A stretch of DNA of 64,000 nt from Bacteroidia bacterium (GTDB taxonomy: Bacteria > Bacteroidota > Bacteroidia > CAIKAF01). The notes under the pieces are model-generated. The model had not been told where the DNA came from. It did no database searches and saw only the letters and a program-made list of their open reading frames with translations. Below are positions 9,487 to 52,599 of this stretch, piece after piece. The translations under genes and the position numbers were made by a program. Positions within the stretch are counted from its first letter, which is position 1. The number at the start of each line of letters is the position of its first letter. The stretch is taken from contig JACVCJ010000006.1 in the NCBI GenBank assembly GCA_016742095.1, forward strand, positions 62,001 to 126,000. Reading direction: 5' to 3'.

Positions 9487-9494
9487 TACTTTTG
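9487..9494 (+). promoter_or_regulatory. -7 element of the SRP RNA gene
   Basis: TACTTTTG fits TAnnTTTG and ends just before the RNA. TTTC at 9464-9467 lies 19 bases upstream as a near -33 box. Confidence 0.55.
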
Positions 9495-9497
9495 CAG

Positions 9498-9597
9498 TGG
9501 CAAGTCTTACACGACCAGTCTCCTTTTGAACCTCCCCAGGACCGGAAGGTAGCAAGGATAGAAAGTCGTAGCGGTGCGATGTAAGTAACTTGCCATT
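9498..9597 (+). ncRNA. ffs: Signal recognition particle RNA (small bacterial type, 4.5S)
   Basis: The RNA scaffold of SRP, which binds Ffh and targets membrane proteins. The ends pair (TGGCAAGTCTTAC at 9498-9510 with GTAAGTAACTTGCCA at 9581-9595). The apical domain holds the conserved Ffh-binding pieces: CCTCCCCAGGACCGGAAGGT, with the GGAA tetraloop at 9543-9546, then AGCAAGGATAG. A T run follows at 9596-9601. The exact ends are estimated from the terminal helix. Confidence 0.93.
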
Positions 9598-9623
9598 TTT
9601 TGTGCCCGGAAGTTTCGTTCCGT

Positions 9624-20512: not shown

Positions 20513-20683
20513 CTCACTCCAGCAACGCCAGCAGATCCTCCCTCGTCAGCGACTTCGCCGCGGAAACATCCGTTTTGATCAATGTCTCGATCAGCTCCTT
20601 TTTTGCAGCCTGTAATTCCATAATGCGCGATTCTACTGTGTCCGGGCAGATCAGTCGCACGGCCACCACGTGATTTTTCTGCC
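20513..20683 (-). repeat. Left 171-bp direct repeat: displaced 3' end of the SNF2 helicase gene
   Basis: This copy matches 22521-22691 at a constant offset of 2008 bases with nine mismatches by eye (about 95% identity). On the minus strand it encodes the last 56 residues of the helicase plus its TGA, from QKNHVVAVRLICPD to SLTREDLLALLE, without the rest of the gene. Only one residue differs (LIETLIK here, LINTLIK in the other copy); the other seven substitutions are synonymous. There is no start codon or ribosome binding site, so it is an untranslated remnant. Confidence 0.93.
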
Positions 20684-20901: not shown

Positions 20902-22438
20902 ATGGAATCAGCATCAAAATTAGATCGTCTGCGATTAGTAATTACAGAAAACCTCCGTGTGCAACGAGGAGGCGCTGAACATGTTCCTTATATTGATGTT
21001 ACTAGTGCCTTAAATGATGTTAAGGCTCGTCAAAACCATGCAATATTTGCTAGACGGGGTTGTGGTAAAACTCTTTTACTCCATCATTCGAAAAAAGAAC
21101 TAAATGAAGATGTCAAAACAATATATTTAAATTGTGAAGATTTCAAAACACATTCCTTTCCTAACGTTTTAATTGAAATACTCGATGCTGTATTTGGAGA
21201 GCTGCAAAGTAATCTATCCGGTTGGTTTGGTAAGAAAAAAAAGTCACGTAACATTATTGGCGAAATAAGATCACAACTTAATGAGTTGAGAAAACAGGCA
21301 GATGAGAGGGTAGAAGATGTTCGTGAAGCGATAATAACTGAGACCAATGACGGAGTGGGCATGAAGACTCTATTCCCTGGTGTAGTAGAAGGCGGCTTCG
21401 AGGCCAATGATTTGCAAAAAAAAGAAGTTGAAAAATCATATAAAAAGTCTGATGACAAATTGCAAGAGTTAAATATTTGGCTTCCTCGACTCAAAAAACA
21501 AATACAAGAGTTCTTTATGCTTTCAACTTCGGTTAAAGCTGTATTTATTTCAAATTGATGATTTTTATCATTTGAAACGCGTAGACCAACCCTTTGTAAT
21601 GGACTATGTTCATCGCCTTTGTAAGGACTTGCCACTATATTTCAAAGTTGCTACTCTTCGTCATGCAAGTGTATTATATGCAGATCGAATAGGTCAACCT
21701 ACAGGAGCGCAAGAAAGACATGATTATCAGCCAATAAATATTGATTTTACTTTTGCAGACTTCCGTAAAACAGAACAACAACTCAAAAGAATCTTTCATG
21801 AATTTGGAAAGCAAGCAAATATGACTTCTGATGAAATTGATGGAATTTTTAAAGGCGACGGTTTTAAAAGGTTAGTTATGGCAGGAGGAGGAGTTCCTCG
21901 AGATTGTTTATCGATATTTCTTGAAGTTCTTGAAAATGTAAGAAATGGTGATAGTCGTATAGGAAAAGATGATGTCCGTATAATGAGTAGAAGTAATTTT
22001 GAGCGCCGAATTGAAGAATTAAAGCAAGATTCTGAGGGGGCCGAACAGAATGTATTGCTCAAGGGTATATACGTAATTAGAAAGTTCTGCATGGATAGAA
22101 AAACAAATCTTTTTTTTATATCGGAACAGATGCTGCAGCAGAAAGATAATTTACGAGAACTTATTTATCGACTATTAGATTATCGAATAATTCATAGTGC
22201 TGGTACCGCAATTACTCATAAATCTCAACCTGGAACTTTTCATGCATTCGTAATAGATTTAGGTTCATATGCACATATGCGAACGTTGCAGGGCAGATTT
22301 AATGAATTAGACATAAGTGATCCCGCTACAAAAGAAAAGATGAGATCATCACCAGTATTAGCCTTCGAAGATTTTCAAGGTCTTTGGGATTCTGTGCCGC
22401 AAGACGTAGAACAAGAATTACTTCGAGAAGATCAATAG
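20902..22438 (+). pseudogene. AAA+ ATPase (ORC/Cdc6-like architecture), split by a +1 frameshift
   Basis: Two reading frames, 20902-21558 (218 residues) and 21572-22438 (288 residues, TTG start), join into one protein of about 510 residues if one T in 21548-21550 is removed. The join reads SVKAVFI-QIDDFYHLKRVD. Domains of the joined protein: Walker A FARRGCGKTLLLHH near residue 50, a charged coiled-coil insertion (about 100-205), Walker B VFIQIDDF, a sensor-1-like strand YFKVATLRHASVLY, a sensor-2-like GGGVPRDCLSIFLEVL, and a C-terminal winged-helix-like part (about 390-470). This order is that of ORC/Cdc6-type AAA+ proteins (inference from motifs). The break separates Walker A from the Walker B acids, so neither half should hydrolyse ATP alone. 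No nuclease, protease or other effector domain is seen. Sequencing error cannot be excluded. Confidence 0.82.
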
Positions 22439-22520: not shown

Positions 22521-22691
22521 CTCACTCCAGCAACGCCAGCAGATCCTCCCTCGTCAGCGACTTCGCTGCGGAAACGTCCGTTTTGATCAGGGTATTGATC
22601 AGCTCCTTTTTTGCAGCCTGTAATTCCATAATACGCGATTCTACCGTGTCCGGGCAGATCAGTCGCACGGCCACCACGTGATTTTTTTGCC
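22521..22691 (-). repeat. Right 171-bp direct repeat: 3' end of the intact SNF2 helicase gene
   Basis: This copy is continuous with the helicase reading frame and supplies its last 56 codons and TGA. It matches 20513-20683 in the same orientation. The inner edge lies one base beyond the stop codon; the outer edge lies inside the coding sequence at the GQKNH segment, just after the DRVHRIGQ motif. Confidence 0.93.
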
Positions 22692-25600
22692 CGATGCGGT
22701 GCACCCGGTCTATGGCCTGGTTCTCCACGGCGGGGTTCCACCAGGGGTCTACCAGGTAAACGTAATCGGCCTGGGTAAGGTTCAGCCCGGTGCCGCCGGC
22801 TTTCAGGCTGATCAGGAATACACGTACTTCCGGATCTTCGCTGAAGCGTTTTACCCGGGCGGCGCGGTTCCGGGTCTCGCCCGTGAGGTATTCAAAACCG
22901 ATGCCTTCTTTTTCCAGGCGTTCGCGGATCAGTTCCAGCATGGACACAAACTGGGAGAATACCAGTATCTTATGTTCCGGAGCCTTGTTGCGGATCTCTT
23001 CCACCAGGGTCTCGATCTTGGAAGAGGCCGCTCCGTAGTACTTTTCGTCGTTGAGCGTAGCGGGCGAATTGCAGATCTGCCGCAGTTTGATCAGCCCCTG
23101 CAACACGCGCATGCTGCTCTGTGCGGTCTCTTCCTCGCTTTGCCCCAGGATCAGGCTGCGCAATTCCTGCATATAGGCATCGTACACCGCGCGCTGTTCG
23201 GCCTCCATTTCGCAGTAGATCACCATTTCGGTCTTGGCGGGCAGTTCGGCGGCTACCTGTTCCTTGGTCCTCCGCAGGATGAACGGATGTATTTTGCGTT
23301 GTAGCTCCTGCGTGCGGCGGCGGTCCCTGAACTTATCGATGGGAATGGAATAGGTGTCCCTGAAGTACTGTTTGCTGCCCAGCAGTCCCGGACAGGCAAA
23401 GGACAGCTGACCGTACAGGTCAAAAGTGTTGTTCTCCACAGGCGTACCCGTAAGCGCCAGGCGGTTGCGTGCCTGTAACATGCGTACGGCCTTGTAGCGC
23501 TGAGATTCCGGGTTTTTTATGGCCTGCGATTCATCCAGTACGATGTAGTTGAAGCGGTAGCTCTTAAAGATCTTTATTTCGGATTGCAGTACGCCGTAGG
23601 TGGTCAGAATAATTTCGTGCTCATCGAAAACGCTGGTATTCTTTATGCGTCTGCTGCCGTATTGCGTATATACCTTCAGCGTGGGCGCAAAGCGTTTCAG
23701 CTCGTCCTGCCAGTTGAACAGCAGGGACGTGGGTACCACCACCAGGTTCACGTTGTGTGTGCTGCGGCTGCGTTGTGCCAGCAGGAAAGCGATCACCTGC
23801 AGGGTTTTGCCCAGGCCCATATCATCGGCCAGGCAGCCCCCGAAGTTCATTTCGTCCAGGAAATTGAGCCAGTCGAGCCCCTGTTGCTGGTAGCCGCGCA
23901 GTTGTGCCTGGAGTTCTGCGGGTACTTCGCTGCGGCGAATGTTCTCGAAACCGGCCAGTTTAGACTGGTACAGGGCCAGCTGTGAGCGGGTCTCCTGCGT
24001 AAGCATCTCTTCATCATACATCTCGGCAATACCCGAAAAGCTGATGTGCGGCGTGCGGATCTCCTCTTCGCTGATCTCGCCGGCATCGAAAAAACGGGCC
24101 ATTTTCTGCAGCCATTCTTCGGGCAGTATGCCCCGGGTACCGTCGTCCAGCTCGATGTAGCGGCTGCGGTTGCGTACGGCCTTGTGCAGCTGCTTCAGGG
24201 GGACCTGTTTATCACCGAAACTCACGTTCACGCGGGTCAGGAACCAGTCGATGCCGCTGCTTACCTGTACCGCTATTTTTACTTTGTTCGGGTTCAGTTT
24301 GTTGTGGCTTAGCTGACTGAAGCCCAGTATCGTAATGCCCTCGCGGCGCCAGTCCTCGAAGGCGTCGGGGAACCAGTTCTCGTCCAGGAAACGGTCTTTG
24401 TGCAGGTACAGGGATTCGCGGTTCAGCTGTTCTTCAAAACCGCTGTACTGCCGCAACAGCACGCTGATGAAGGCCAGTTCGGCAAATTCGTCGCGGGGCA
24501 CGGAAAAAGCCTGCCCGTTGTAATCGGTATCGTAGATCTGCCGGCGCGACAGCACCGGAACTTCGATATGGCCGTAGCGCATTACCGGTGTAAGCAGTAC
24601 GTATTTGCCCGATTCGGAAAGATACAGCAGTTTTTCCACGGGCTCTGTAAAGCCTTTTTCTTCCAGTTGCTCCTGTGTGGCGGGTTTCAGGAAGGAATAG
24701 CGTATACGCACCTTGTTTTCGAGCCGGGAAAGGACGTTAGCCCGGAAATCTTCGAACTGCGACTGGTGCAGCAGGATCCCCGCATGGCCGCCCCGGAAAA
24801 AAGCGATGATCTTCAGCAGTTCGGGACTGTCGATAAAATACAGGGTGGTACCCAGCAGCAGAAAATGCCGGTAGCGTAACTGTAAAGCATACAGTTCAAA
24901 TACGGCGTCGCCGATATGCAGTTGTCCGCTGATGCGGCAGAAGGGGTCTTCAACGTCCACGCTCAGGCGTACGTCGGCCGGAAGCAGCTTTACCTGTACC
25001 GGACTGAGCGAAGCGCTGCTCACATTTTCGGATATACGGTGGTCGTGGAAGAACGTATCCAGTCCCGCGGCATTGCGGATCACGCTGCGCATGGCTTCCA
25101 GGTCGGTAGGACTGAGTTCAGTACCCGGCAGGTTGCGCAAACGGCTCAGGGCATTGTAAAAACGAAGTACGGCGGGATCTTCGGTATCCGTGACTTTTTC
25201 GAAAGGATCGGCTTCGCGCAGCGGGTTCTTAACCTTGCCGGCCGCGCTAAATGGAGCTTCGTACAAGGCTGCCACGGGAGCGTCGGAATAGGCGTGTTTA
25301 CCGAAAACGAGCAGGCTGCGTACATTTTCTTCCTTTTTGCCGGCGGGTAATGCCGTGGTATCATCGGGGAGCAGCTGTTTTTCCAGGCTCTGCCGGGTAT
25401 CGCGGTTGTAGGGGATCCATTCCTTTACCCGCGGAAGTACGTCGATGTTTTTGTGTCTGTATTGTATTTCGAACCAGGCGTCGGGGTCTTCGGTCTCCTG
25501 CAGACCATATTCGCGGGCTACACTGCGTATTTTTTCGTGCCGGAGGAACTTGTCGAAGAATATACGCAATTCGCGGCGGTTCATGATATTGAACAGTACC

Positions 25601-25896
25601 TGGGTCTGGTGCGTGCAGAGTTTATTTTTGGGTGCGGCGCAGGGACAGTTCAGTATCAGCGTATCGTCCTGCAGCAGGATGCTCACAGGCGGTATGGGCG
25701 GGTATCCCGGGGCCTGGCTGAAAACGGCCTGACCTGTTTCGATCTGTAGCGGTTCCAGTTCGTAAAAACCGCGGGCCGTTGTATCGGTTTCCGTGCCATG
25801 TGTATACAAAAACGTATTGCTGAGCCGGGAGATCGTAAAAGCGGGAAAAACGAATTTTTCCGGGTGTGCGTTTTCTTTTTTTTCCGTTTCGCTCAT
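22522..25896 (-). CDS. SNF2-family DNA helicase/ATPase with SWIM zinc finger
   Basis: A 1124-residue Swi2/Snf2-type translocase. Near the N terminus is a SWIM zinc-finger pattern [15 protein letters not shown] (Cys84, Cys86, Cys94, His96). The SNF2 ATPase core has [16 protein letters not shown] (Walker A, near 695), [11 protein letters not shown] (motif II DESQ, near 787) and LTGTPVENN (motif III). The second lobe has [20 protein letters not shown] and [20 protein letters not shown] (motifs V and VI). Such proteins remodel or translocate along DNA in repair or transcription. Twenty bases downstream of the M61 peptidase gene, so probably co-transcribed. Its final 57 codons are duplicated beyond the island. 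Confidence 0.95.
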   Translation of the reverse strand: [1124 protein letters not shown]

Positions 25897-27535: not shown

Positions 27536-28807
27536 CTACCTGCGGGGATAACGCATCAGCCGTTTTTTGGTCGTGCCGAACAGCAGGTGTCCGGGCCGTT
27601 CCGCTGCCTGGGAGCTGTAAATGCCCTTGTGGCCGGAGAAAAAATAGGCCGTGATACAGGCGGGTACCAGGTATATGGCGGTTTCTGCGCCGAAGAGCTC
27701 AATGCCCATCAGTATGCAGGCCAGGGGCGTATTGGAGGCGCCCGCGAATACGGCCGTAAATCCCAGTGCCGTCAGCAGGCTCAGCGGCAGCGGTATCCAG
27801 GGCGAAAGGGCACTGCCCAGCACGGCGCCGGTAAAGAACAGCGGGGTTACTTCGCCGCCCTTGAATCCGGCACCCAGGGTAAAAGCGGTAAAGAGTATTT
27901 TCAGCAGGAAATCATGGGCCGGCGCCGGGCTCCGGAAGGCTTCCCCGATCACGGAAATGCCCAGTCCGGCATAACGTGTACCGCCGTACCAGAAAAGCGC
28001 CGCCAGCACCGTACCGCCCAGCAGGGGCCGCAGCGGAGGCCAGGTAATGTAACGGACAAAGAGACGGGTGCAGGCATGTATGCTTTGTGAAAAAAGCAGG
28101 GCGGCCAGCCCGAAGAGCATACCGGCAGCGATGCAGAAGCCCAGGCTGCTGAAGCTGAACTCAGGTAGTACGGGCCTTGGGTAATGGGTATGCCCGATCT
28201 GCCAGGCGCGGCAGCTGAGATCGGCCACCAGGGCACTGAGCAGGGCCGGCAGCAGCGCGGTGTAACGGGTACGTCCGCCATGCAGTACTTCCAGTCCGAA
28301 AACAGCTCCGGCCAGCGGTGTGCCGAATACCGAAGCAAAACCTCCGCTGATGCCCGTGATCAGCAGTATACGACGTTCTTTTCGGTTGAGCCGGAAGGGG
28401 ACTTTCAGGCGCTCGGCCAGGGCTGCGCCCATCTGTACTGCTGTGCCTTCCCGGCCTGCAGAACCTCCGCCCAGGTGTGTTAGCAGGGTGCCTGCCAGCA
28501 CCAGGGGCGCCATCCGGAACGGAATGGGCCTGCGGGGTGTATGAAATTCTTCGATCAGCAGGTTATTACCGCCCGAAACAGACGCTCCGGCATAGTGGTA
28601 CAGCGATCCGCAGAGTAATCCCAGCAGGGGCAGCAGTAAAAGCATCCAGCTGTGGGCCTCACGGAATTCTGTTGCCTGTTGCAGTAAGGCCAGGAACAAA
28701 GCGGAAGCCGAGCCGGAGAGCAGACCCACGGTGCAACAGAGTAAAAGCCATTTCAGCAGGTAAGGAAGGGAGCCCGGTTTGTTTGTCGTTTTCGTGTCTG
28801 TTTTCAT
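27536..28807 (-). CDS. CLC-F type fluoride/proton antiporter
   Basis: A 423-residue CLC-fold channel/antiporter with about ten hydrophobic helices. Several motifs point to the fluoride branch rather than chloride CLCs. The first anion-site motif is SGGNNLLIEE (Asn81-Asn82) in place of GSGIP, and the gating-Glu motif is GGSAGREGTAVQMG (Glu120) with Thr in place of the usual Pro. GISGGFASVFGTPLAGAVFGLEVL is the conserved helix pair. The call is strongly supported by a fluoride riboswitch in the leader. It should export F- in exchange for protons. Own promoter; the M61 gene follows by 50 bases. Confidence 0.92.
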   Translation of the reverse strand: MKTDTKTTNKPGSLPYLLKWLLLCCTVGLLSGSASALFLALLQQATEFREAHSWMLLLLPLLGLLCGSLYHYAGASVSGGNNLLIEEFHTPRRPIPFRMAPLVLAGTLLTHLGGGSAGREGTAVQMGAALAERLKVPFRLNRKERRILLITGISGGFASVFGTPLAGAVFGLEVLHGGRTRYTALLPALLSALVADLSCRAWQIGHTHYPRPVLPEFSFSSLGFCIAAGMLFGLAALLFSQSIHACTRLFVRYITWPPLRPLLGGTVLAALFWYGGTRYAGLGISVIGEAFRSPAPAHDFLLKILFTAFTLGAGFKGGEVTPLFFTGAVLGSALSPWIPLPLSLLTALGFTAVFAGASNTPLACILMGIELFGAETAIYLVPACITAYFFSGHKGIYSSQAAERPGHLLFGTTKKRLMRYPRR

Positions 28808-28837
28808 ACAAAAGTATACTCATGGCCACTGGCCGTA

Positions 28838-28888
28838 AAACAGACGTCATCAGCACCAAAGTGCGGTTCCGGGCAGACATCATTGCCA
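28838..28888 (-). promoter_or_regulatory. Fluoride riboswitch (crcB motif)
   Basis: Read on the minus strand: stem P1 GGCA (28887-28884) / TGCC (28875-28872), loop containing GATGTC, then AACCGC, stem P2 GCAC (28864-28861) / GTGC (28856-28853), then CTGATGACGTCTGT. The loop GATGTC (28881-28876) can pair with GACGTC (28848-28843), giving the pseudoknot of the fluoride aptamer (five Watson-Crick pairs and one G-U). The conserved AACCGC and GCTGATGAC blocks match the crcB motif as I know it. A GGCCA-G-TGGCC hairpin (28834-28824) between aptamer and ATG may be the expression platform. Confidence 0.88.
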
Positions 28889-28898
28889 CATATTCTTA

Positions 28899-28930
28899 CA
28901 AAGATAGCTAAAAAACAGGTATTCCCCAAA
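28899..28930 (-). promoter_or_regulatory. Promoter of the CLC-F gene and its riboswitch
   Basis: On the minus strand TTTG (28930-28927), 20 bases, TATCTTTG (28906-28899). Transcription would start a few bases before the aptamer. Confidence 0.7.
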
Positions 28931-52180: not shown

Positions 52181-52302
52181 AAAAGAAAAGAAAGGTCGTA
52201 AGACCTCAAACGTATAAAGGTCCACCTGTCGATCCGGTCTTCAGACCGGGTAGGAAAGTCCGGGCAGCGCAGAGCACCGCACCACCTAACGGGTGGGGTC
52301 TC

Positions 52303-52321
52303 GTCTCGCTTGCAGCGAGAC
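52303..52321 (+). repeat. First CTCGCT...AGCGAG hairpin in RNase P RNA
   Basis: GTCTCGCT-TGC-AGCGAGAC, an 8-bp perfect stem. Shares its core stem with the hairpins at 52355-52371 and 52487-52503. Confidence 0.8.
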
Positions 52322-52354
52322 GGGATACGGAAAGTGCCACAGAGAACGATACCG

Positions 52355-52371
52355 CCTCGCTGTAAGCGAGG
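52355..52371 (+). repeat. Second CTCGCT...AGCGAG hairpin in RNase P RNA
   Basis: CCTCGCT-GTA-AGCGAGG, a 7-bp perfect stem, same core as the others. Confidence 0.8.
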
Positions 52372-52486
52372 TAAGGGTGAAAACGTGAGGTAAGAGCTCA
52401 CGCGTTGTATGGCAACATGCAGCGGGGAAAACCCTGCGGGCTGTAAGACCAAATAGGTCTGCTGCAGCGGGAGTTGCTCGCTCCCC

Positions 52487-52503
52487 TCTCGCTGTAAGCG
52501 AGA
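52487..52503 (+). repeat. Third CTCGCT...AGCGAG hairpin in RNase P RNA
   Basis: TCTCGCT-GTA-AGCGAGA, a 7-bp perfect stem with the same GTA loop as the second copy. Confidence 0.8.
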
Positions 52504-52599
52504 CGGCAGATGGGTAGGTCGCTGAAGGGGCCGTGTGAACGTCTCCGCAGATAAATGACAGGATAATACAGAACCCGGCTTATGGGCCTTTATGGTATT

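Follow-up and report, generated by a model that had tools for sequence, protein, structure and literature searches.

A predicted fluoride riboswitch ahead of a CLC-F exporter gene in Bacteroidia, with a candidate expression platform at the start codon

A fluoride riboswitch aptamer precedes a predicted CLC-F fluoride/proton antiporter gene on the minus strand of a 64,000-nt stretch of DNA from a Bacteroidia bacterium (hereafter, the window). Sequence comparison and modelled folds suggest that this riboswitch turns on translation of the antiporter without a terminator or a Shine-Dalgarno sequence, a reading to which a probability of roughly 0.8 is assigned. Aptamer and exporter belong to known families, and their pairing is textbook. 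What appears useful is the comparative case, in which a well-studied aptamer would control translation by covering the start codon in a phylum without Shine-Dalgarno sites. It gives a testable model for Shine-Dalgarno-independent translational riboswitches.

Aptamer and exporter gene

The aptamer (crcB motif, RF01734) was located with cmscan at 28834-28896 on the minus strand, scoring 44.3 bits (gathering score 34) with an E-value of 5.4e-9 for 64 kb. The match spans the full model (1-64) and is unique at E <= 0.001 in the whole 3.7-Mb genome (E 7.4e-11). The initial annotation, made from the sequence alone, had proposed a fluoride riboswitch here and suggested a covariance model search as a check; the search is significant, and the coordinates given there are correct. 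The two stems, the AACCGC and GCTGATGAC blocks and the six-pair pseudoknot that it described are all present. The pseudoknot pairs the 5' strand GAUGUC (28881-28876, minus strand) with the 3' strand GACGUC (28848-28843) in 6/6 pairs, one of them U-G, and the aptamer of the family relative G011 likewise forms 6/6 pairs. With a score above the curated cut-off, a pseudoknot that joins the P1 loop to the 3' strand, and a position 5' of a fluoride-related gene, the RNA resembles the crcB motif in sequence, in both stems, in the pseudoknot and in its site before an exporter gene; no difference was found within the aptamer of the window. The pairing of riboswitch and CLC-F exporter is confirmed at the level of the predicted aptamer.

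Loss of the pseudoknot in close relatives that keep the gene had been named as evidence against a riboswitch. None of 96 Bacteroidia aptamers has lost it (six pairs in 70, five in 26), but in five of seven named CLC-F relatives (L018, L019, L020, L022 and L023) a search relaxed to E 1 gave no aptamer match. The promoter TTTG-N20-TATCTTTG placed upstream by the same annotation was recovered by pattern search at 28899-28930 (minus strand), ending three bases ahead of the aptamer. The TTTG/TANNTTTG-type motif is presumably a Bacteroidota promoter; the window contains two matches to TTTG-N19-21-TANNTTTG, where 0.48 would be expected, which makes the candidate suggestive but not significant alone.

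The exporter gene (27536-28807, minus strand) begins 26 nt past the aptamer and encodes a protein of 423 aa assigned to Pfam Voltage_CLC. Its closest relatives in the PDB are the CLC-F antiporters 6d0j, 6d0k and 6d0n (E 1.5e-61 to 1.8e-60), the first of which is from Enterococcus casseliflavus. The motifs GGNNLL (79-84) and GREGT (118-122), from which a CLC-F exporter had been proposed, are accompanied by GGEVTPLF (317-324) and Y397; E120 and E319 align with the CLC-F glutamates E118 (external gate) and E318 (inner) of 6d0j. A conserved tyrosine is a feature of CLC-F proteins. The protein thus shares with the 6d0j-type antiporters the fold family, the GREG external-gate glutamate, the inner glutamate of GGEVTPLF and the tyrosine, and differs in carrying Asn81 at the position of the selectivity methionine M79 of 6d0j. 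Asparagine is found there in 73 of 75 Bacteroidia CLC-F proteins, and the chloride-type serine is absent from the protein of the window as well. Known CLC-F proteins carry either methionine or asparagine at this position, so methionine was not treated as required. An ordinary chloride CLC behind a leader that resembles an aptamer by chance is a negligible prospect: NCBIfam does return chloride CLC models alone, all far under their cut-offs, but the best chloride CLC in the PDB reaches only E 2.4e-10 against 1.5e-61 for CLC-F, and GREGT, GGEVTP and Y397 are kept in 75/75 riboswitch-linked CLCs. By its sequence, the 423-aa protein is a member of the CLC-F family.

A predicted helix between the pseudoknot strand and the start region

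Immediately behind the ATG, codons 2-4 read AAAACAGAC (28804-28796), to which the strand GUCUGUUUU (28845-28837, minus strand) is perfectly complementary. The nine perfect pairs are referred to here as the anti-start helix. GUCUGUUUU starts within the 3' strand of the pseudoknot and takes half of it, namely its last three bases (28843-28845), so that pseudoknot and anti-start helix are mutually exclusive. Folding was performed with RNAfold, which models neither pseudoknots nor fluoride. In the free fold of the whole leader (-38.7 kcal/mol), the nine anti-start pairs have probabilities of 0.82-1.0, and the minimum-energy structure places the start codon in a small hairpin, UAUAC-UUUU-GUAUG (28805-28818, minus strand), stacked on the helix. 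With the pseudoknot strands kept out of other pairing, the pairing in this hairpin falls from 0.93-0.96 to 0.68-0.70, and the start region becomes more open, its mean unpaired probability rising from 0.32 to 0.54 for one choice of region. For another choice, the opening in the window is 0.19 vs 0.06 in shuffles, and 10% of the shuffles reach 0.19.

Helices were scored with simple weights devised for this analysis. Compared with dinucleotide-shuffled versions of the downstream piece, the anti-start helix has a p-value of 0.015, and the energy of the whole duplex is not unusual (p 0.315). These moderate statistics leave room for the reading that the aptamer is real but its match to codons 2-4 arose by chance in this genome, the platform being something else, as does the relative G011, in which the complement lies at -10..-2 and not behind the ATG. 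We consider this unlikely. None of 34 other leaders has a start region that matches the aptamer arm of the window as well, and of the 118 start regions of ORFs of at least 100 aa in the window, 117 fail to do so, the exception being that of the exporter gene itself. The helix also sits where relatives have the same kind of helix, and L026, L034, L061, L076 and L088 likewise have the partner strand over the start codon or behind it, so this register is not unique to the window.

A different element, the GGCCA/TGGCC hairpin between aptamer and ATG, had been put forward as the switch in the initial annotation. The hairpin (GGCC-AGU-GGCC, 28824-28834, minus strand) is stable and suitably placed, but it is formed in both modelled states, with a pairing probability of 0.98-1.0 when folded freely and of 0.82-0.83 with the pseudoknot strands held out. 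It therefore does not discriminate between them, and its overlap with the aptamer match is limited to G28834. It was rejected as the switch, for which it is a very improbable candidate, and is probably passive; the pseudoknot-strand complement just behind the ATG is preferred instead.

The proposed sequence of events is as follows. Transcription would start at or just ahead of the aptamer. Without fluoride, the pseudoknot would be weak, and its 3' strand and the U-rich tail, as GUCUGUUUU, would pair with codons 2-4; the AUG would be held in the small hairpin stacked on this helix, so that the ribosome could not start. With fluoride, the pseudoknot would reclaim GACGUC, the nine-pair helix would lose its first three pairs and collapse, and the start region would open. 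The exporter would then be made and fluoride removed. We infer that fluoride is bound, that the switch acts in the ON direction, and that translation is the controlled step. Translational platforms usually hide the Shine-Dalgarno site. Bacteroidota are described as having no Shine-Dalgarno sequences, with translation tuned by structure in the start region (PMC6847099).

Control of transcription is a rival to a translational switch: without fluoride, an anti-pseudoknot helix or the GGCC hairpin would stop transcription, either directly or via Rho acting on exposed, untranslated message. Elsewhere, many crcB-motif RNAs overlap terminators (PMC2864571), 323 of 1901 tested fluoride riboswitches terminate in vitro (PMC13273304), and other riboswitches are known to be coupled to Rho. 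However, a terminator-like site is absent from the sense strand between aptamer and ATG, and an intrinsic terminator was rejected. Moreover, the helix in the window ends in codon 4, and the sequence after it is ACACGAAAACGAC rather than a T run, and in relatives it ends at or near the ATG. A transcriptional switch is accordingly regarded as improbable. The leader has the two properties of a translational riboswitch that were looked for, namely folds that exclude each other, at the level of sequence and model, and the lack of an intrinsic terminator.

The design resembles that of known transcriptional fluoride riboswitches, in which the pseudoknot competes with a downstream stem and covariation has been published for the terminator version (PMC13273304). 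In the Bacillus cereus and Thermotoga petrophila riboswitches (covarying terminator stem P4), as here, a downstream strand competes for the 3' strand of the pseudoknot and the folds exclude each other (PMC13273304); the competitor here, in contrast, is located at the start codon or in the first codons, with no terminator after it. Intrinsic termination is also lacking in two fluoride riboswitches, one from Pseudomonas syringae and one from Burkholderia pseudomallei, that serve as translational controls in PMC13273304. They differ from the present case in that Bacteroidota have no Shine-Dalgarno site (PMC6847099). A literature search turned up neither papers on the platforms of fluoride riboswitches from Bacteroidota nor a start-codon-covering version that covaries across Bacteroidia; subscription papers lay mostly outside the search, and both are weak negatives.

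Comparison of leaders across Bacteroidia

The aptamers compared all score above the cut-off and come from a class-wide draw (positive in 39 of 395 genomes, all 44 matches used), from two families (the best-scoring 50 new loci used) and from two named relatives. Left out were seven matches below the cut-off (L003 and L067-L072) as well as L141-L143. The resulting 96 aptamers lie before CLC-F genes (75), before CrcB genes as judged by length and motif (15), or before something else (6). Exclusion of L056, with a spacer of 237 nt, left 74 of the 75 CLC loci, and removal of 39 near-duplicates left 35 non-redundant leaders. The start codons were assigned manually for L064 and L092 and placed at leader reading frames for L035, L043 and L098.

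In the sequences of these Bacteroidia CLC-F leaders, the complementarity between the 3' strand of the aptamer and the start region is found to covary. The mean best-helix score of the 35 leaders is 17.93, compared to 13.32 (sd 0.54) with arms permuted, and none of 5000 permutations is as high. Permutation within the two CLC-F clades gives 0/10000 for both together, also without the window, 13/10000 in the smaller clade (14 leaders) and 0/10000 in the larger (21). A helix of at least six pairs is present in 28/35 leaders, with changes on both sides in several columns; column 9 of the aptamer arm, for example, is G-C in 10 loci and A-U in 16. As a rule, the partner strand in relatives is UUUGUAGG or UUUGCAGG, with its end at or close to the ATG, or else UAAUCAGG, placed a few bases upstream of that. 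The best helix is centred at -20..+12 of the start in 29/35 leaders (16.6 expected). With the pseudoknot strands held out, opening of the start region exceeds the shuffled mean in 28/35 (Wilcoxon p 1.8e-4), and the predicted opening is among the top 5% of shuffles in 10/35.

The signal is weaker in single leaders. No six-pair helix with the tested arm, scored at 13, was found in 7/35 leaders, and own pairs beat 95% of the swaps in only 6/35, which we attribute to similar arms being shared by many leaders. One of the misses, L021, represents Pedobacter-type leaders, in which AACAGGC of P3 pairs with GCCUGUU at +2..+8. An earlier test with a broad aptamer arm yielded p < 0.05 in 18/43 loci; it was less sharp because bases of P3 were allowed to compete. 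In 18 non-CLC loci, the same test gave 13/5000 permutations as good, with own pairs above the swapped mean in 7/18. This signal comes from leaders with enough room; where 5-11 nt separate aptamer and ATG, as in seven CrcB leaders, matches do not exceed four bases.

For Bacteroidia fluoride riboswitches as a group, a Shine-Dalgarno-independent platform in which the pseudoknot strand covers the start codon is somewhat favoured. The partner would be free to move between about -17 and +14, so that the first codons of some genes (that of the window and several CrcB genes) may form part of the switch and the N-terminus may be shaped by RNA pairing.

Some aptamers precede other genes. In L041, L054 and L055, the aptamer lies before a gene for a 184-aa membrane-like protein with a GTG start, and an 11-pair helix reaches the start codon; by eye, the protein looks like a PAP2-type phosphatase. 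Other aptamers precede genes named by eye as enolase (L043) and NhaP-like antiporters (L035 and L098), from which they are separated by a short leader frame. The ATG of this frame is closely followed by the complement of the pseudoknot strand in L043 and L098, which suggests control via a leader peptide, and L035 has four pairs only.

Exporter distribution and genomic neighborhood

Within the family of the window's genome, represented by 16 genomes, a riboswitch above the cut-off together with CLC-F is found in two, the window's own and G011. CrcB/Fluc is encoded in the other 14 and absent from exactly these two, a perfect split with a chance of 1 in 120 under independence, shared ancestry being left in. 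In an exporter tree of 61 rows, from which rows more than 85% alike in an ungapped comparison had been dropped, both exporters belong to one clade of 28 rows in which their mutual relation is not resolved; they may have a single origin. The alternation of CLC-F with riboswitch and CrcB in one small family is a clean case of exporter replacement.

Downstream of the exporter gene are genes for an M61 peptidase and an SNF2 helicase, which the initial annotation considered partly fluoride-responsive through read-through. Searches for M61 relatives were positive in 15 of the 16 family genomes, the window's own among them, with 32-37% identity for many. For the SNF2 helicase, the 15 family genomes besides the window's own yielded a single marginal match (E 3e-4) and no clear relative, and the exporter of G011 is followed by neither gene, an unrelated long secreted-looking protein being encoded there instead. 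Joint control with the exporter is therefore unsupported, and a fluoride regulon by read-through was rejected. In addition, a promoter-like TACCTTTG is seen by eye in the 50-nt gap ahead of M61.

The SNF2 helicase gene (22522-25896) has DpdE and ZorD as its best PADLOC models, which does not show a role in defence. Its 3' end is present twice, in a direct repeat of 171 nt (20513-20683 and 22521-22691, 95% alike, starts 2008 nt apart). Between the copies are two plus-strand frames, 20902-21558, with a weak AAA match below the Pfam cut-off, and 21572-22438, without a match; they look like one broken P-loop ATPase gene. An insertion between the repeats possibly duplicated the end of the SNF2 gene. 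Further RNAs in the window are an RNase P RNA of class A (52213-52598) and a Bacteroidales small SRP RNA (9491-9599).
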